Shown: piece after piece, positions 54,930-63,121 of the stretch
How the letters are laid out: each line of letters opens with the position of its first letter
Position numbering within the stretch: the first letter of the stretch is position 1
Origin: Gammaproteobacteria bacterium
Lineage (GTDB): Bacteria > Pseudomonadota > Gammaproteobacteria > Pseudomonadales > IMCC2047
Reading direction: 5' to 3'
Assembly (NCBI GenBank): GCA_021773395.1
Contig: JAJFKB010000014.1
Coordinates: forward strand, 350,219 to 414,218
DNA length: 64,000 nucleotides
The notes under the pieces: generated by a model
The model's input: the letters and a program-made list of their open reading frames with translations, nothing else
What the model was told of the DNA's origin: nothing
The model's database searches: none
Program-made: the position numbers and the translations under genes

Positions 54930-55000
54930 AAAAGGGACGCAATTATTTTGGTAGAAAACTAATTGGATAATTAGGTGAAAAATAATTGCGTCCCCTTTTT
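54930..55000. repeat. REP-like palindrome, copy 1
   Basis: GGGACGCAATTATTTT and its complement AAAATAATTGCGTCCC, 30 or so bases apart, form a long hairpin. This is one of four copies at 54.9-60.3 kb and the most diverged in the loop. It lies between the small secreted protein and the 3' end of katG. Confidence 0.85.
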
Positions 55001-57365: not shown

Positions 57366-57514
57366 TTATCGGGGCGTGGAAAAATAGTACTCTTAATCGG
57401 TATTACGAGTATACAAATGCATTGTTGCAGGCTGTCTGTCCACAATCTACTTAATTGTATTTATGCAAATTATAGATTTTAACTATTGCAGCTTTGCTGC
57501 TGCCATTAGAAGAG

Positions 57515-57586
57515 GAAAGGGGACGCAATTATTTTAATAGAAAACTGACTGGATAATTGCATGAAAAATAATTGCGCCCCCTTTCC
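57515..57586. repeat. REP-like palindrome, copy 2
   Basis: This has the same hairpin as copies 3 and 4: GGGGACGCAATTATTTT, a loop containing AATAGAAAACTGACTGG, and the complementary arm with one T-to-C change. It sits 58 bases beyond the terminator of the first PEP-CTERM gene, in the 337-base gap between that gene and katG. Confidence 0.9.
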
Positions 57587-57644
57587 GTTTTTTTAAATCG
57601 TAACAATGAGCCATGACAATCAATTTAGCAATTCCCAACAGCAA

Positions 57645-57672
57645 TAAAAAACCCCGCTTTGCGCGGGGCTTA
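57645..57672 (-). terminator. Terminator of PEP-CTERM gene 1
   Basis: On the minus strand GCCCCGC and GCGGGG pair around a short loop and are followed by six T residues, 16 bases after the gene's stop. Confidence 0.85.
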
Positions 57673-57687
57673 ATTTAATCTAAGAAA

Positions 57688-58398
57688 CTATGCTTTCTTG
57701 CGTCGTGCGAAGCCTAGTCCAGCGAGGCCGAGGCCGAATAGTGTAAGCGTACCTGGAATTGGCACCCGCTGCTGCCCTTCAAAGGATACTTCATCCCAAC
57801 TAACCGTGACCCCCTGTTGAAGATTAACGAGGCCACCATCTTCCCTAGTATATTGGATGACATAGTCAGTCCGCACGCTGGTAAAGTCTGGTAGCTGCGG
57901 TAAAACACTCTGATCAACTGGGGGGTTAAAGAAAAAGAGCGTTTGCCAAGGAACAAATTTAGTGTTGTACGAGGAGGCGCCCGGGAGTAGAGTTGCAGGA
58001 GAGTTATATTCCGGCGCGGTTACTGAGCCGGAGATCCCAGACAAATCGTAGTTCCAGACCTGGAACCAACCATTTGAACCTGAATATCTGCCTTGAGTGA
58101 CCGTCTGCGATGTAATCAACGGGTCATAATTCCACACTGCCCCATTACCCAGATCTAAACCAAAATCAATAACAGCAGTACTAAAGCAGCAAGCAGAGTC
58201 CTTAGGCGCGGCGGGATCGTAAGTCAGCCAAGCGGTCGCTGTATCGCCAACTGAAAATGGAGCCTCTCCATCGAGTGGTGAATTAATACCAGTAATGTCA
58301 CCGGAGAAATTGACGGTGACTGGTGTAGCGCTCGCGACTATTGGTAAGACTACAGCGCAGATTGCCAAGATAGTGCGCAAGTTAATTATTCTGAGCAT
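57688..58398 (-). CDS. PEP-CTERM secreted protein 1
   Basis: A 236-residue protein with a Sec signal (LAICAVVLPIVASA, about residue 24). The C-terminal sorting signal is VPIPGTLTLFGLGLAGLGF followed by RRKKA, that is, the PEP-like motif, a membrane segment and a basic end. The motif is PIPG rather than the canonical PEP. Exosortase is expected to cut there and release or modify the protein at the cell surface. The core is rich in Asn, Ser, Gly and aromatics and matches no family I recognise. A sigma-54-type promoter and an upstream element precede it. Confidence 0.88.
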   Translation of the reverse strand: MLRIINLRTILAICAVVLPIVASATPVTVNFSGDITGINSPLDGEAPFSVGDTATAWLTYDPAAPKDSACCFSTAVIDFGLDLGNGAVWNYDPLITSQTVTQGRYSGSNGWFQVWNYDLSGISGSVTAPEYNSPATLLPGASSYNTKFVPWQTLFFFNPPVDQSVLPQLPDFTSVRTDYVIQYTREDGGLVNLQQGVTVSWDEVSFEGQQRVPIPGTLTLFGLGLAGLGFARRKKA

Positions 58399-58528
58399 AA
58401 AAGCATTCCTCCAAAACTCTTCTGCACCACGAGTATAATTGATATCAGCGAGAACAAATTGTTAAGATCGCCAATGATAGCTAACCGCATGTGCGGTAGG
58501 ACTCTGATTTACATTAATTAGTTATAAG

Positions 58529-58543
58529 GCAAGAACCGTGCCG
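58529..58543 (-). promoter_or_regulatory. Sigma-54 promoter of PEP-CTERM gene 1
   Basis: The minus strand reads CGGCACGGTTCTTGC, with GG and GC spaced by ten bases as required for -24/-12 promoters. It lies 131 bases before the gene start. Confidence 0.75.
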
Positions 58544-58554
58544 ACTATAAAAAA

Positions 58555-58602
58555 CAATAACTTACATAAATGTAGACCTAAAAATGTAAAATAACCTGAC
58601 AC
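58555..58602 (-). promoter_or_regulatory. Conserved upstream element of PEP-CTERM gene 1
   Basis: The minus strand reads TGTCAGGTTATTTTACA, a 20-odd-base spacer, then TGTAAGTTATTG. It ends 12 bases before the -24 box. The same element stands before genes 2 and 3. TTACA and TGTAA form an inverted pair, which suggests a dimeric activator site. Confidence 0.7.
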
Positions 58603-58606
58603 TATT

Positions 58607-58680
58607 TGTGGGTATTTTAATAAATGAAAGGTATCACTAGGCCGCAGAACCGCTTAGGAAGCACAGAGAAGCATTGCAAT
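58607..58680. repeat. Shared flank repeat behind the upstream element, unit 1
   Basis: The stretch with GAAAGGTAT, CTAGGCCGCAGAACCGC and TAGGAAGCACAGAGAAG recurs at 61487-61574, and in weaker form at 59991-60074. All three copies lie just beyond the upstream element of a PEP-CTERM gene. Confidence 0.75.
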
Positions 58681-58700
58681 TGATAGGAAAGGGCAGTGAT

Positions 58701-58775
58701 AGGAAAGGGGACGCAATTATTTTAATAGAAAACTGACTGGATAATTGCATGAAAAATAATTGCGTCCCCCTTTTC
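58701..58775. repeat. REP-like palindrome, copy 3
   Basis: 17-base perfect arms GGGGACGCAATTATTTT and AAAATAATTGCGTCCCC. The bases just before it carry a partial tandem copy of its left edge (GATAGGAAAGGG). It directly precedes the terminase-like remnant. Confidence 0.92.
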
Positions 58776-58776
58776 G

Positions 58777-59118
58777 TTGACTGGATTTAAAAGGCACATT
58801 TCCAGAAATGTCGGCATGAATCGCGCAATATTTTTGATTTTGACGAATTACCCAGGCCACATGAGCGAAGCACAGCGGCTTATCTGGCGCGAGCTGGTAT
58901 CTGAATCAGTGTCAGGCGTTTTACGAGTATCGGACGGTATCCTGCTCGAAGTGGTTTGTGGTTTATTGGATCAGTATCGCAACGGCGAACCAGCGGCATG
59001 GCAGATGCAACTTCTCGTTAAGACGCTTGCAAGTTTAGGGTTTGCACCCGCTGAGCGGCACCGCTTAGGTGTTAAGCCACAGGGCAAGACTACAGACGAA
59101 TTCGAGCTTTTAAATTAA
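58777..59118 (+). pseudogene. Phage small-terminase-like (P27 type) remnant, copy A
   Basis: The core from the ATG at 58861 (85 residues) reads SEAQRLIWRELVSESVSGVL, then a helical part and LASLGFAPAERHRLGV, a pattern seen in P27-type small terminase subunits. Upstream, LDLKGT and a Lys/Arg/His stretch of the same family can be read only by allowing frame changes. Compared with copy B this copy lacks about 17 bases before the core. Most base differences between the copies change amino acids, so it is probably not under selection. Confidence 0.55.
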
Positions 59119-59125
59119 CAGGCAC

Positions 59126-59151
59126 AAAAAAGCCCCACCGAAGTGAGGCTT
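59126..59151 (-). terminator. Terminator of PEP-CTERM gene 2
   Basis: On the minus strand AAGCCTCAC, TTCG, GTGGGGCTT and a T-run form a hairpin 14 bases after the stop. An identical copy follows gene 3. Confidence 0.85.
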
Positions 59152-59164
59152 GATGTCATTGGAA

Positions 59165-59860
59165 TTACGCTTTCTTGCGTCGTACGAAGCCCAGTCCAGC
59201 TAGGCCGAGGCCAAAGAGAGCGAGGGTGGCGGGCTCGGGGACCGCTGCGGTTTGAAAGGTTAAAGTTAATCCATCTAAATCATTGTCGGACCCCGTGAAA
59301 TGTTCATAGATGACTCCCGTATTGGGGTACACACCGGATCCTGCCGAAAAATCGATCTCACCTGGATCTGGAAGAATGCTACCTCCAGGACTAATGCCTA
59401 CCAGCCCATCACTTAAGGAGATGTCGCCAAACTCGATTACAATGGTTCCCGTCGAGAACAGCTCGATTGAAAAGCTATTTGAGCCTGTATTGATAAACTC
59501 TGGTACGCCCACCCAAGACACTAGCATAGAGCTCGAATCCCCAGTAGCATCTACAGAACCCCCCGTACTAGGATTGAGGTCATCCCAAAGTCCAGCAATT
59601 CTTGGTTGATCACCCAGAAGCTCGGATGTGGATTCGCTGAAGTCAGTATCACCGCTGCCAAAAGTAATGTAACCGTTTGATCCCACAAAAATGCTGTTAT
59701 AGCCGAATCCCTGAAAATTAAATATGAAATCCAGGGCGACCGCCTCAAAGTCATCATCTGAAAGAGGCAGAACAACGGCCTGTGCGTATTGTTGAGGCAG
59801 CATTAATAATGCACCTAACAAAGCAGGAGAGAAAATTTTTCCACAAGTATTTTTAAACAT
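59165..59860 (-). CDS. PEP-CTERM secreted protein 2
   Basis: A 231-residue protein with a signal peptide (LLGALLMLPQQYAQA, about residue 28). Its core is acidic and rich in Gly, Ser and Asp, with FVGSNGYITFGSGDTDF and ISLSDGLVGISPGG, loosely like nidogen-type or secreted beta-rich proteins. The C-terminus is the canonical VPEPATLALFGLGLAGLGF then RRKKA. It should be sorted by exosortase. A perfect sigma-54 consensus and the shared upstream element precede it. Confidence 0.92.
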   Translation of the reverse strand: MFKNTCGKIFSPALLGALLMLPQQYAQAVVLPLSDDDFEAVALDFIFNFQGFGYNSIFVGSNGYITFGSGDTDFSESTSELLGDQPRIAGLWDDLNPSTGGSVDATGDSSSMLVSWVGVPEFINTGSNSFSIELFSTGTIVIEFGDISLSDGLVGISPGGSILPDPGEIDFSAGSGVYPNTGVIYEHFTGSDNDLDGLTLTFQTAAVPEPATLALFGLGLAGLGFVRRKKA

Positions 59861-59900
59861 GCTGGGTTTTCCTTTCTGAATGAAGCCTATAATTCATAAC

Positions 59901-59915
59901 GCAAATATTGTGCCA
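59901..59915 (-). promoter_or_regulatory. Sigma-54 promoter of PEP-CTERM gene 2
   Basis: The minus strand reads TGGCACAATATTTGC, an exact TGGCAC-N5-TTGC match, 41 bases before the gene start. Confidence 0.88.
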
Positions 59916-59926
59916 TACAATGAAAA

Positions 59927-59973
59927 CAACAACTTACAGAAAATCATAACCACAACTGTAAAATAATCTGACA
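59927..59973 (-). promoter_or_regulatory. Conserved upstream element of PEP-CTERM gene 2
   Basis: The minus strand reads TGTCAGATTATTTTACAG, then after about 20 bases TGTAAGTTGTTG. It ends 11 bases before the -24 box. Confidence 0.72.
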
Positions 59974-59990
59974 TTTACAAGGGGCTCTCT

Positions 59991-60074
59991 AATGAATGGC
60001 TTAAAGGTATTTGATGGTATTGCTAGACCGCAGAGGAGGCACAGAGGCTTAGCGATTACTAATACCACCTAACA
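59991..60074. repeat. Shared flank repeat, unit 2 (diverged)
   Basis: It contains GAATGGCTTAAAGGTAT, CTAGACCGCAG and GCTTAGCGATTACTAATACC. The last part is shared with unit 3 (61487-61574). Confidence 0.65.
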
Positions 60075-60091
60075 GAAAACCAGTGGGCTAT

Positions 60092-60190
60092 TGACCGCGA
60101 TCAGGTCAAGCTGGTGATCGATGCGCCTAGGTCAGTCTGTATTGTGAGAGATAATGCGACAATTAAAACCAAACCGGCATTGGAAAAACG
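60092..60190 (+). pseudogene. Short coding-like remnant, copy in unit 2
   Basis: One frame reads VKLVIDAPRSVCIVRDNATIKTKPALEKR. It matches the remnant at 61606-61719 (AIDAPRSVAVVRDDAKIKTK). It lacks a start, and a stop before the REP element is not clear. I do not recognise the parent protein; a phage origin is a guess from the neighbour. Confidence 0.4.
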
Positions 60191-60194
60191 GTGT

Positions 60195-60270
60195 AGGAAA
60201 GGGGACGCAATTATTTTAATAGAAAACTCACTGGATAATGGTATTAAAAAATAATTGCGTCCTCCTTTTC
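60195..60270. repeat. REP-like palindrome, copy 4
   Basis: The left arm is identical to copies 2 and 3; the right arm has one change (GTCCTCC). It again directly precedes a terminase-like remnant. Confidence 0.92.
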
Positions 60271-60372
60271 GTTGACTGGATTTAAAAGGTACATTTCCAG
60301 AAATGTCGGCATGAATCGCGCAATAATTTTGATTCGGACGAATTACCTTTAATTGGTGGTGCGCCAGGCCAC

Positions 60373-60630
60373 ATGAGCGAAGCACAGCGGCTTATCTGGC
60401 GCGAGCTGGTATCTGAATCAGTGCCAGGCGTTTTACGAGTACCTGACGGTATCCTGCTCGAAGTGGTTTGTGGTTTATTGGATCAGTATCGCAACGGCGA
60501 ACCAGCGGCATGGCAGATACAACTTCTCGTTAAGACGATTGCGAGTTTAGGGTTTGCACCCGCTGAGCGGCACCGCTTAGGTGTGAAGCCACAGGGCAAG
60601 ATTACAGACGAATTCGAGCTTTTAAATTAA
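60373..60630 (+). pseudogene. Phage small-terminase-like (P27 type) remnant, copy B
   Basis: The same 85-residue core as copy A, with nine base differences, at least six of them changing amino acids. The frame stays open upstream through SDELPLIGGAPGH and a His/Arg stretch, but an extra C near 60296 breaks it from the LDLKGTF start of the family. The intact parent protein can be read across this break. Confidence 0.55.
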
Positions 60631-60636
60631 CAGGCA

Positions 60637-60662
60637 CAAAAAAGCCCCACCGAAGTGAGGCT
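60637..60662 (-). terminator. Terminator of PEP-CTERM gene 3
   Basis: The same hairpin as at 59126-59151, 14 bases after the stop. Confidence 0.85.
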
Positions 60663-60676
60663 TGATGTCATTGGAA

Positions 60677-61372
60677 TTACGCTTTCTTGCGTCGTGCGAA
60701 GCCTAGTCCTGTTAGGCCGAGGCCGAAGAGTGCGATTGTGCCGGGTGTGGGAATACTACCATTACCTGTTGTGGATGTGTCAAGGAAAGCACACGAGCCG
60801 GCATTTTGCGGATCTTCATCTGGGTCGCTATCAATAGCGTTAAGTCCGACCGGACATACTAGAGTTTGTGCGTTGGGGTCTGTAATCAGTGCAAATCCTT
60901 CGCTAAAGGGCGGGGCGAATTCCCAACCATAGCCGCTGTCAGTTTCATTGGGCCCAATATAATCAGCGTAATACTCAGACGCCCAAAATACCGCAGCTTT
61001 GGAGCCAGGACCAAAAATGGTGGCAAACGATCCTATGCCGTTCGCTCCTGTAGTGAAAGAGTGCATAACTTCCCCAAAAAAGTCGTACTGCTCATAAGTC
61101 TGCCCTTGATTCCACTGAGTTGAGGTTGGTAAATCCCCCTGCCAACCTGATGGTTCGGCAAAAGGTGAAAAAGCGTCGAAGTCTGTACTAACCCCAAAAG
61201 CCCATACTGAGTAGCCGGGCCCCACTGAAATCGTGTAGCGCACACCACCATTGCCACCGGTAAAGGGTGTTTCCCAGAACCTGACTGGTGGGGGCTCTAC
61301 TAAAATAGCGTTAGCGAATGTGCTTAGCGAAACGCTGATAATCACGAACAAAAAACGAGCTATTCTTAACAT
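60677..61372 (-). CDS. PEP-CTERM secreted protein 3
   Basis: A 231-residue protein with a signal peptide (FVIISVSLSTFANA, about residue 23). The core has many aromatic and Gly residues (WETPFTGGNGGVRYTISVGPGYSVWAFG). The sorting signal IPTPGTIALFGLGLTGLGF then RRKKA uses PTPG rather than PEP. Gene ends, terminator and promoter resemble those of gene 2, but the core sequence does not. It has a GGAGGA site. Exosortase sorting is expected; the function is unknown. Confidence 0.9.
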   Translation of the reverse strand: MLRIARFLFVIISVSLSTFANAILVEPPPVRFWETPFTGGNGGVRYTISVGPGYSVWAFGVSTDFDAFSPFAEPSGWQGDLPTSTQWNQGQTYEQYDFFGEVMHSFTTGANGIGSFATIFGPGSKAAVFWASEYYADYIGPNETDSGYGWEFAPPFSEGFALITDPNAQTLVCPVGLNAIDSDPDEDPQNAGSCAFLDTSTTGNGSIPTPGTIALFGLGLTGLGFARRKKA

Positions 61373-61405
61373 GACCTATCCTCCAATAGATGTAAGGAGA
61401 AACAA

Positions 61406-61420
61406 GCAAAAATTAGACCA
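61406..61420 (-). promoter_or_regulatory. Sigma-54 promoter of PEP-CTERM gene 3
   Basis: The minus strand reads TGGTCTAATTTTTGC, with the essential GG-N10-GC spacing, 34 bases before the gene start. Confidence 0.78.
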
Positions 61421-61432
61421 CTACAACAAAAT

Positions 61433-61480
61433 CAACAACTTACAGATAATAGTATCAACAACTGTAAATTAATCTGACAC
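61433..61480 (-). promoter_or_regulatory. Conserved upstream element of PEP-CTERM gene 3
   Basis: The minus strand reads GTGTCAGATTAATTTACAG, then after about 20 bases TGTAAGTTGTTG. It ends 12 bases before the -24 box. Confidence 0.72.
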
Positions 61481-61820: not shown

Positions 61821-63121
61821 GGCTCTTCATCATTAACGGGGGACACCGGCATTCATTAAACTGATTTCGCGACAATCAATTTAATGGAGAACACCGATGT
61901 CCCACACAGGAAGAATTATAGGCATACCTGGCCTGGAGATTGAACGGGTAGATCACAATAAAGGTATTGAGGTGTGGGCTAAACCCACACGCAGGCCGCT
62001 TTGTCAGCATTGCCAGGGCGATGGTTTGAAGATTAAAGCCACCCACCACCGCACCATTAAGCACACACGTCTGGGCAATCAGGTGATGACCTTGCACCTG
62101 CGAGTACCCAAGTACCACTGCCAGAATTGCAGGCGCTATTTTCGCCATCCCTTTATTGGCATCCGTCCTCGCTACCGGGCTTCTGAGGCTTACCGACTGG
62201 AAGTCTTTGAGGCGCATGATGGCGGTGTCACGCAACGCAAACTCTCACGTACACACAACATCAGTGCAGCCACTGTCGAGCGCTGGTACCGGTATCACGT
62301 GGGCCGGAAACGATCTGAAATGACCCATCGACCCTGCCCTCGGGTGGTTAGGCATTGATGAGCACTTTTTTACACGCAAGAAAGGCTACGCGACCACCTT
62401 CGTGGATCTGAAGAATCACAAGGTGTTCGATGTGAAGCTGGGGCGATCAGAACTCAGTCTACGCCGCTACTTACGGGCACTGGAGGGGCGCGACCAGGTT
62501 CAGGTTGTGGTGATGGATATGTCCGAAACCTATCGCCGCATTGCTCAGCGCTACTTTCCCAAAGCCACCATCGTGGCCGATCGATTCCACGTGGTACGAC
62601 TGATTAATCAGCATTTTTTAAAAGTCTGGCAACAGCATCACCCAGAGGGAAGAAAGAATCGCGGATTGCCCAGCCTGATGCGTCGGCATCAGTGGCGTTT
62701 AAGCGATGAGCAGCACGAGAACCTCATGAGCTATTTGGCTGAGTTTCCGGTGTTGCAGGCGCTTTATGTGGCAAAACAAAAATTAATCCGCTTTATGTTG
62801 CTAAAGACGCTGACTGCGCGTCGTGCGAGGAAGAAGTTACCACACTATCTTGAACTATTGGAGCAGCTAAAAGACAGCCCACTACGTGCGCTGGCAAAGA
62901 CACTGAAGTCTTGAATGGCACCCATCATTTCCATGTGGCGGTTCAGTAAAAGCAATGGCATAACTGAAGGGTTCCACAACAAGATGGAAATGATGTCGAG
63001 GAGAGCATATGGTTTTAGAAACTTTGAGAATTATCGGTTAAGAGTGCTGGCCCACTGCGGGTGGGATGGTATTATCAACCGGGTTTGATGAGTGTCCATC
63101 CCCCGTTAATGGGGTAGAGCC
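61821..63121 (+). mobile_element. ISL3-family insertion sequence (1301 bp)
   Basis: The left end GGCTCTTCATCATTAACGGG and the right end, read inward GGCTCTACCCCATTAACGGG, are inverted repeats of the ISL3 type. The element is flanked by an exact 8-bp direct repeat CTTGTCAG at 61813-61820 and 63122-63129, as expected for ISL3. It carries one transposase gene, now broken. Confidence 0.93.
61897..63088 (+). pseudogene. ISL3-family transposase, inactivated
   Basis: The N-terminal zinc-finger part (CQHCQGDG; YHCQNCRRYF) and helix-turn-helix read from 61897. An extra base in GTGGTTAGGCATTG near 62350 then shifts the frame away from GIDEHFFTRKKG, where the first catalytic Asp lies. The second part runs through VVMDMSETYRRIAQRYFPKA and VADRFHVVRL to a TGA at 62912-62914, where Trp is expected. 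The C-terminal part (NGITEGFHNKMEMMSRRAYGF, with the catalytic Glu) then continues in that frame to 63088. One frameshift and one nonsense change suffice to explain it. Confidence 0.92.

Follow-up and report, generated by a model that had tools for sequence, protein, structure and literature searches.

What controls the three PEP-CTERM-type genes that follow one another on the minus strand of a 64,000-nucleotide stretch of a gammaproteobacterial genome (contig JAJFKB010000014.1, positions 350,219 to 414,218; hereafter the window)? A sequence-only reading of this DNA had pointed out that each gene is preceded by a GG-N10-GC box of the sigma-54 type and, further upstream, by the same element of about 48 bases, and had proposed that this whole element is the PrsR site of the genome. 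We found the genes, the boxes and the element where they had been placed. The explanation that we favor, with a probability of about 0.8, is that the genes are single-gene units transcribed from PrsR-activated sigma-54 promoters of a PEP-CTERM regulon, with a loop assisted by integration host factor (IHF) and linkers phased with the DNA helix. The assignment of the 48-base element to PrsR would thus hold in part: its distal 17-mer fits a motif already proposed in the literature, whereas its proximal part fits the IHF consensus.

The three promoters share one layout. Read 5' to 3' on the minus strand, the 17-mer TGTCAGRTTANTTTACA (motif 1) comes first, followed by a 13-mer and then by the -24/-12 box (Table 1). 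The 13-mer starts 20 bp past the 17-mer, and the GG of the -24 box lies 42, 42 and 43 bp past it. As had been stated for the element, its proximal half, TGTAAGTTRTTG, ends 11-12 bp upstream of the -24 box. It had also been said that the activator stands unusually near the -24 box; this part finds no support, since the center of motif 1, the predicted PrsR site, and the predicted transcription start are about 76-77 bp apart. The starts are expected near 58517, 59889 and 61394 on the minus strand. When up to 3 mismatches were allowed, the 17-mer was found three times in the window, each time exactly, against a mean of 0.97 in shuffled sequences. A combined pattern of element and box gave 2 matches against 0.00 in shuffles; it leaves out gene 1, whose box starts with CGG. 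All three proteins pass the cut-off of the Pfam PEP-CTERM profile (PF07589, 20.7 bits), and those of genes 2 and 3 also pass that of TIGR02595 (16 bits), which gene 1 narrowly misses at 15.2 bits. The tail motif itself varies, being PIP in gene 1, PEP in gene 2 and PTP in gene 3.

One could assume that a single promoter region was recently duplicated and that the likeness tells nothing about regulation. Duplication is real inside the window: the upstream DNA of genes 1 and 3 is 83% similar over 133 bp and that of genes 2 and 3 is 70% similar over 313 bp, the DNA downstream of genes 2 and 3 is 92% similar over 552 bp, and a gene at C2:61792 of the same genome shares both ends with them. Because the window promoters are partly duplicates, their likeness is on its own weak evidence; the case beyond chance is made by the remainder of the genome and by other genomes. 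There, the composite element also precedes PEP-CTERM genes, elsewhere in this genome and in many others, and does so in other spacing classes. Duplication alone cannot account for such sites, and as the whole explanation it appears extremely unlikely.

The source genome (3.80 Mb in 26 contigs) contains 17 sites for motif 1, written as TGTMARNTTNNTTTACA, at no more than 1 mismatch, against 6 for the pattern read backward. A sigma-54 box of the form GG-N9-TGC stands downstream of 16 of the 17, and PEP-CTERM-type genes, their tails being judged by eye, follow 14 of these 16. With 14 of all 17 sites before such genes, the distribution is regulon-like, as the sequence-only reading had expected of a genome-wide search. 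Behind the remaining two sigma-54-bearing sites lie a small open frame (C20:58457) and the gene of a Tat-leader-like protein (C20:72086). TIGR02595 recognizes 11 genes in the genome, of which 7 have a motif-1 site of their own and 1 stands directly behind such a gene; half of the 14 PEP-CTERM-type genes behind sites, including two in the window, are outside these 11 matches. The components that had been predicted are also encoded. Profile searches gave scores over the cut-off for PrsR (735 bits, cut-off 502.6), PrsK (799, 300), PrsT (604, 312), exosortase A or XrtA (353, 208) and RpoN (734, 513), and the PrsR, PrsK, PrsT and exosortase genes are held by one contig, between 14.6 and 47.0 kb. 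Both IHF subunits are encoded as well (IhfA 161.4 bits, cut-off 120; IhfB 149.3, cut-off 115), and an HU-like protein scores 139.6 bits, below its cut-off of 157.

The core of this idea is already in print. Haft et al. (2006; PMC1569441) described a 17-nucleotide motif 1 ending in TTTACA together with a sigma-54 motif 2, and proposed it as the PrsR site. The pair preceded 99 of the 167 PEP-CTERM genes of proteobacteria, mostly single genes, with a spacer of mean 62.8 nucleotides (standard deviation 10.6, range 32-92), and the motif was tied to PrsK, PrsR and PrsT by phylogenetic profile. The window 17-mers match motif 1 in length and in their 3' end TTTACA, the comparison being with the published text. 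As in that report, a sigma-54 motif follows (spacers of 42-75 in 16 of the 17 sites of our genome, within the published range), PEP-CTERM genes stand downstream, and PrsK, PrsR, PrsT and EpsH/exosortase are encoded. The three window promoters are thus new instances of a cis-element predicted in 2006. What differs is the spacer, given there as a mean and resolved here into helical classes, and it contains an IHF-like site; a word search of PMC1569441 found no statement on IHF, spacing phase or helical repeat.

We looked at other genomes in three ways. An open-gap search of 294 genomes (the order sample) gave 30 sites in 23 other genomes and none for the backward pattern; 28 of the 30 came with their locus and were read. 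A scan of contigs gave at least 118 stretches, neither a complete nor a random sample, with 117 distinct sites in 116 stretches. From these two sources, 145 external sites were listed and sorted by their sigma-54 box, 99 being good (T as the first letter and no more than 3 mismatches to TGGCACN5TTGC; 23 from the order sample and 76 from contigs), 24 bad (at least 4 mismatches) and 22 in between, the last being left out of the statistics that compare good with bad. Removal of near-duplicates kept 97 of the 99, kinship being not otherwise corrected. Finally, a stricter pattern applied to 370 genomes (the class sample) yielded 8 sites in 7 other genomes and none backward. None of these 8 has its first 60 bases in common with the earlier loci, and they are the sole later test of the phased positions described below, which were picked after the external set had been seen.

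Within the order sample, a PrsR match occurs in 21 of the 24 genomes that have the element and in 75 of the 270 that lack it (Fisher p 9.8e-9, kinship uncorrected; PrsR was scored at E up to 1e-150, and all such matches exceed the profile cut-off). Downstream genes carry a PEP tail by regular expression at 57 of the 99 good listed sites, at 1 of the 24 bad ones and at 2 of the 22 in between. Several of the unflagged tails look like variants (SEP, AEP, PAP); others differ or have no complete frame.

The distance between motif 1 and the GG of the -24 box changes in steps of about one helical turn, in our genome and elsewhere. The 16 spacings of our genome fall at 42, 42, 43, 43, 43, 43 and 44, at 51 and 54, at 63, 64, 65, 65 and 65, and at 74 and 75 bp, and remain phased when the three window promoters, homologous to a fourth, are left out (R=0.855, p 7e-5). 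Among the matches listed, the 99 good external sites occupy 42, 50-54, 61-66, 73-77 and 83-87 bp (R(10.5)=0.746, Rayleigh p ~1e-24, kinship uncorrected), the best-fitting period being about 11 bp. The 24 listed sites with poor, chance-like boxes are unphased (R=0.24, p=0.25). The fresh set of 8 gave 53, 62, 62, 64, 65, 66, 74 and 76 bp, for which phase alone is weakly significant (p=0.024).

What, then, lies between motif 1 and the box? The IHF consensus has been written in two forms, YAANNNNTTGATW and WATCAANNNNTTR (PMC5963220). It occurs with 0-1 mismatches in 13 of the 16 spacers of our genome, and the mismatches summed over all 16 amount to 13, against 35.2 +- 2.5 in dinucleotide shuffles, none of 1000 being as low. 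Since the idea arose from these 16 sites, its test is the external set. Among the 99 good listed sites, 52 have a match at no more than 1 mismatch (17.5 +- 3.7 in shuffles) and 14 a perfect one (0.97 in dinucleotide shuffles), while the 24 chance-like sites have 5 (2.2 in shuffles). A count of gapped triplets that used no consensus placed AAC-N4-TGA, AAG-N3-TTG and TAA-N4-TTG among the ten strongest enrichments, and these are IHF half-sites at their spacing.

The matches are also phased relative to the -24 box. At the phased positions, 50 of the 97 listed non-redundant sites have a match at no more than 1 mismatch, against 2.73 +- 1.61 in shuffles. The count is 15-44 when these positions are displaced by 1-2 bp, 1-7 when they are moved 3-7 bp upstream and 3-5 when they are moved 3-5 bp downstream; an upstream move of 10 or 11 bp gives 26. 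In the fresh set, 6 of 8 sites have a phased match, against 0.19 in shuffles. The IHF-like site is found in both orientations among the listed external sites, reversed copies standing at the matching phase. We placed the bend center at the WATCAA end of the 13-mer, a geometry that we take to be that of IHF. With this assumed geometry, it lies on average 20.0 bp upstream of the -24 box in the main forward group (29 of 40 matches) and 20.4 bp in the main reverse group (14 of 24), and its distance from the motif-1 center clusters by helical turn (52 matches, R=0.81).

The proximal block could also be read as part of a PrsR site that covers the whole 48 bp, the full dyad being followed by a second half-site, TGTAAG, with no IHF. 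Indeed, TGTAAG resembles TGTCAG and begins 35 bp past the 17-mer start in all three window promoters, and PMC1569441 reports that motif 1 is sometimes repeated. However, other sites of our genome have AATAAG, CGTAAC, GCCAAC, CCTAAC or GTTAAC, with YAA-N4-TTG kept. Likewise, 54 listed external sites, preselected at no more than 2 mismatches to the IHF consensus, show no preference for TG before AA, Y-AA-N4-TTG-A-T-W being prominent, and the reversed copies of the site at matching phase speak against a second half-site too. We read the proximal part as IHF because the TGT before AAG is not conserved elsewhere and YAA-N4-TTGAT is. A second PrsR half-site, with a TGT that is not conserved beyond a few sites, was rejected, and we regard it as very unlikely; TGTAAGTTRTTG fits an IHF-type site rather than a part of the PrsR site.

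We propose that the promoters could work as follows. PrsK would phosphorylate PrsR and thereby switch them on. Phosphorylated PrsR would bind the 17-bp imperfect dyad TGTCAG-N5-TTTACA, and IHF would occupy the 13-bp spacer site and bend the DNA, shortening the loop, so that the AAA+ domain of PrsR could contact the RpoN-RNA polymerase waiting at -24/-12. The linkers would vary by about whole turns because a short loop fixes the helix faces of the PrsR site, the -24 box and the bend. The analysis itself shows the sequence parts, the encoded components, the regulon-like distribution, the quantised spacing and the phased IHF consensus; binding by PrsR and by IHF, a helping role of IHF and the switch through PrsK are what we infer.

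Several observations weigh against this explanation. In the order sample, 75 PrsR-positive genomes are without the strict element pattern and three element-positive genomes (G083, G223 and G269) are without a PrsR match; the element matches in G269 and G245 probably arose by chance, their sigma-54 boxes being poor. In our genome, three of the 11 TIGR02595 genes (on C17, C12 and at C13:101200) lack a motif-1 site when up to 1 mismatch is allowed, and three of the 16 spacers match IHF only with 2 mismatches. Two of the 8 fresh sites are without a phased IHF match, one of them having a 1-mismatch site 1-2 bp off, and 26 of the 99 good listed external sites are without a phased IHF-like match (at least 3 mismatches), yet these too keep the phasing (R=0.82). 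Finally, two ihf mutants of Geobacter sulfurreducens show GSU1943 raised 3.0- and 2.8-fold (PMC7962754). The gene is labelled there 'PEP motif-containing protein exosortase substrate', in a section that names no promoter site. This rise is opposite to our model only if the gene has this type of promoter, and its promoter may be of another type; the result slightly lowered our confidence in the model, from 0.82 to 0.80, and in the general rule stated below, and slightly raised that in the explanation without IHF to which we now turn.

According to the latter, the proximal block would be DNA that is bent or rich in A/T, or the site of another nucleoid protein such as HU or Fis, and the phasing would result from loop mechanics alone. 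The A/T-rich DNA that follows the block, the Geobacter result and the equal phasing of sites without an IHF-like match all speak for it, as do the natural enhancer-promoter loops of Vibrio qrr/LuxO, another sigma-54 system, whose lengths form clusters spaced about 11 bp (61 enhancers; PMC4740811). That phasing is due to IHF alone can indeed be ruled out: sites that have no IHF-like match are phased just as well. The phasing is thus a property of the loop, and IHF would take part often but not always. Against the explanation without IHF stand the YAA-N4-TTGATW letters, which at the listed sites reach perfect matches far above the shuffled level, and the main groups of both orientations, which put the presumed bend center at nearly the same distance from -24. 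We hold the explanation without IHF to be unlikely, and the IHF-assisted loop to be the better one.

Parallels can be drawn with known systems. In Aquincola tertiaricarbonis, the PEP-CTERM gene pepA has a mapped start, a -24/-12 promoter (TGGCAC/CTGCTT) that depends on RpoN1, and a predicted upstream enhancer (PMC9850573). It resembles our genes as a PEP-CTERM gene with a sigma-54 promoter and differs in that the promoter is experimental there, in another organism, and predicted here; a word search of that paper found no mention of IHF. Looping at sigma-54 promoters is often assisted by IHF, as reviewed in PMC7057263. The Vibrio fluvialis tssD2 promoters carry an IHF site, TAACTTATTGATT, which matches YAANNNNTTGATW, lies 16 bp from the sigma-54 box and is backed by gel shift and site mutation (PMC5963220). 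Our promoters would be similar in having an IHF consensus between a putative activator site and the -24 box, in a genome that encodes the IHF subunits. The activator and targets differ, being VasH and type VI secretion genes in V. fluvialis and motif 1 of the PEP-CTERM regulon here. The qrr/LuxO loops are similar in their helical clusters and differ in activator, target and length (about 80-120 bp), and the section that describes them is without mention of an IHF site. In our searches of open-licence papers we found no description of an IHF site or of phased spacing in PEP-CTERM promoters; in the retrieved parts of PEP-CTERM papers that mention 'integration host factor', the words occur only in reference lists.

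A general rule for proteobacterial PEP-CTERM promoters probably follows: a PrsR dyad, an IHF site in either orientation and a -24 box, with both linkers in helical turns. The bend center would lie about 20 bp, and in some cases about 9 or 31 bp, before -24. With the helical spacing and the IHF-like site, what was a loose pair of motifs becomes a precise and sharply testable architecture. If true, the rule would find tail variants and regulon members missed by tail models, such as PxP-type tails, and also the Tat-leader-like family beside HprK-related kinase A that is described below.

Table 1. Genes, promoter parts and hairpins of the three PEP-CTERM-type units (window positions).
Feature	Position	Strand	Basis or score
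Gene 1: 236-aa PEP-CTERM-type protein, C-terminal VPIPGTLTLFGLGLAGLGFARRKKA	57688..58398	-	PF07589 22.3, TIGR02595 15.2 bits
Gene 2: 231-aa PEP-CTERM protein, C-terminal VPEPATLALFGLGLAGLGFVRRKKA	59165..59860	-	PF07589 34.5, TIGR02595 29.6 bits
Gene 3: 231-aa PEP-CTERM-type protein, C-terminal IPTPGTIALFGLGLTGLGFARRKKA	60677..61372	-	PF07589 20.8, TIGR02595 19.6 bits
Sigma-54 -24/-12 box, gene 1 (CGGCACGGTTCTTGC)	58529..58543	-	pattern search
Sigma-54 -24/-12 box, gene 2 (TGGCACAATATTTGC)	59901..59915	-	pattern search
Sigma-54 -24/-12 box, gene 3 (TGGTCTAATTTTTGC)	61406..61420	-	pattern search
IHF-like site, gene 1 (TAAGTTATTGTTT)	58552..58564	-	1 mismatch to YAANNNNTTGATW
IHF-like site, gene 2 (TAAGTTGTTGTTT)	59924..59936	-	1 mismatch to YAANNNNTTGATW
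IHF-like site, gene 3 (TAAGTTGTTGATT)	61430..61442	-	0 mismatches to YAANNNNTTGATW
Motif 1, predicted PrsR site, gene 1 (TGTCAGGTTATTTTACA)	58585..58601	-	fits motif as worded in PMC1569441
Motif 1, predicted PrsR site, gene 2 (TGTCAGATTATTTTACA)	59957..59973	-	pattern match
Motif 1, predicted PrsR site, gene 3 (TGTCAGATTAATTTACA)	61463..61479	-	pattern match
Terminator-like hairpin 3' of gene 1	57649..57671	-	hairpin scan of region
Terminator-like hairpin 3' of gene 2	59130..59151	-	hairpin scan of region
Terminator-like hairpin 3' of gene 3	60642..60663	-	hairpin scan of region

The region contains 8 terminator-like hairpins, against 5.0 +- 2.0 in shuffles. A scan for sigma-70 promoters gave 7 in the region, with 7.1 expected and thus no excess, and an Rfam scan of the window gave nothing at gathering scores. 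Pieces of an ISL3-family transposase (zinc ribbon and DDE domain) lie in two frames upstream of the gene cluster, at 61897-62914 on the plus strand. Two similar plus-strand open frames stand between the PEP-CTERM genes (58777-59118 and 60373-60630), both inside the duplicated 552-bp block; the longer matches a phage terminase small subunit weakly and below the cut-off, and the shorter has no match. Inverted repeats, each about 70-80 bp long and with arms that resemble AAAGGGGACGCAATTATTTT, are found at 54930-54998, 57513-57589, 58701-58778 and 60194-60273, one 3' of each PEP-CTERM gene and one after a katG-like gene; such arms have 8 matches, against 0 in shuffles.

Some external spacers differ from the others. 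Two loci of the Halieaceae metagenome-assembled genome (MAG) BB37 (L102 and L140) and one of a gammaproteobacterial MAG (L080) have no phased IHF-like match, and the spacer of L102 holds the inverted repeat CCCCTAACCC...GGGTTAGGGG. In our own genome, the site at C20:58457-58560 combines motif 1, an IHF-like site and a sigma-54 box before a small open frame of about 79 aa, read by eye with a TTG start, whose product does not belong to the PEP-CTERM type.

The Tat-leader-like proteins, a label that is our own reading of a twin-arginine stretch at their start, form a family without a PEP-CTERM tail that follows PrsR-type composite promoters in several genomes. Members were seen in our genome (C20:68800-72102), in three others (G079, G242 and G249) and in a MAG of the Cellvibrionaceae, and Herbaspirillum has a weaker relative; their loci are L209 and L039 in our genome, and L098, L060, L059, L064 and L072. 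NCBIfam gave no match for 3 members and Pfam none over the cut-off for 4. A gene for HprK-related kinase A (HprK_rel_A) follows in all three loci checked (that of our genome, L098 and L060), the scores being 328.4, 372.9 and 207.5 bits against a cut-off of 200, the last for a gene cut by the locus end. PqqD_rel_X exceeds its cut-off in L060 and stays below it in L098, and Pfam NTP_transf_5 is found at the locus of our own genome.

The fourth gene related to those of the window (C2:61792-62598) is homologous to them at both ends. Among the four, the upstream DNA is 70-83% similar and the DNA that comprises sorting signal and terminator 85-92%, and blastp finds no significant similarity between their protein bodies outside the tail region. 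It looks as if gene bodies have been exchanged between conserved ends among the four. Such an exchange would offer a DNA-level route to the rapid expansion of PEP-CTERM families noted in PMC1569441.

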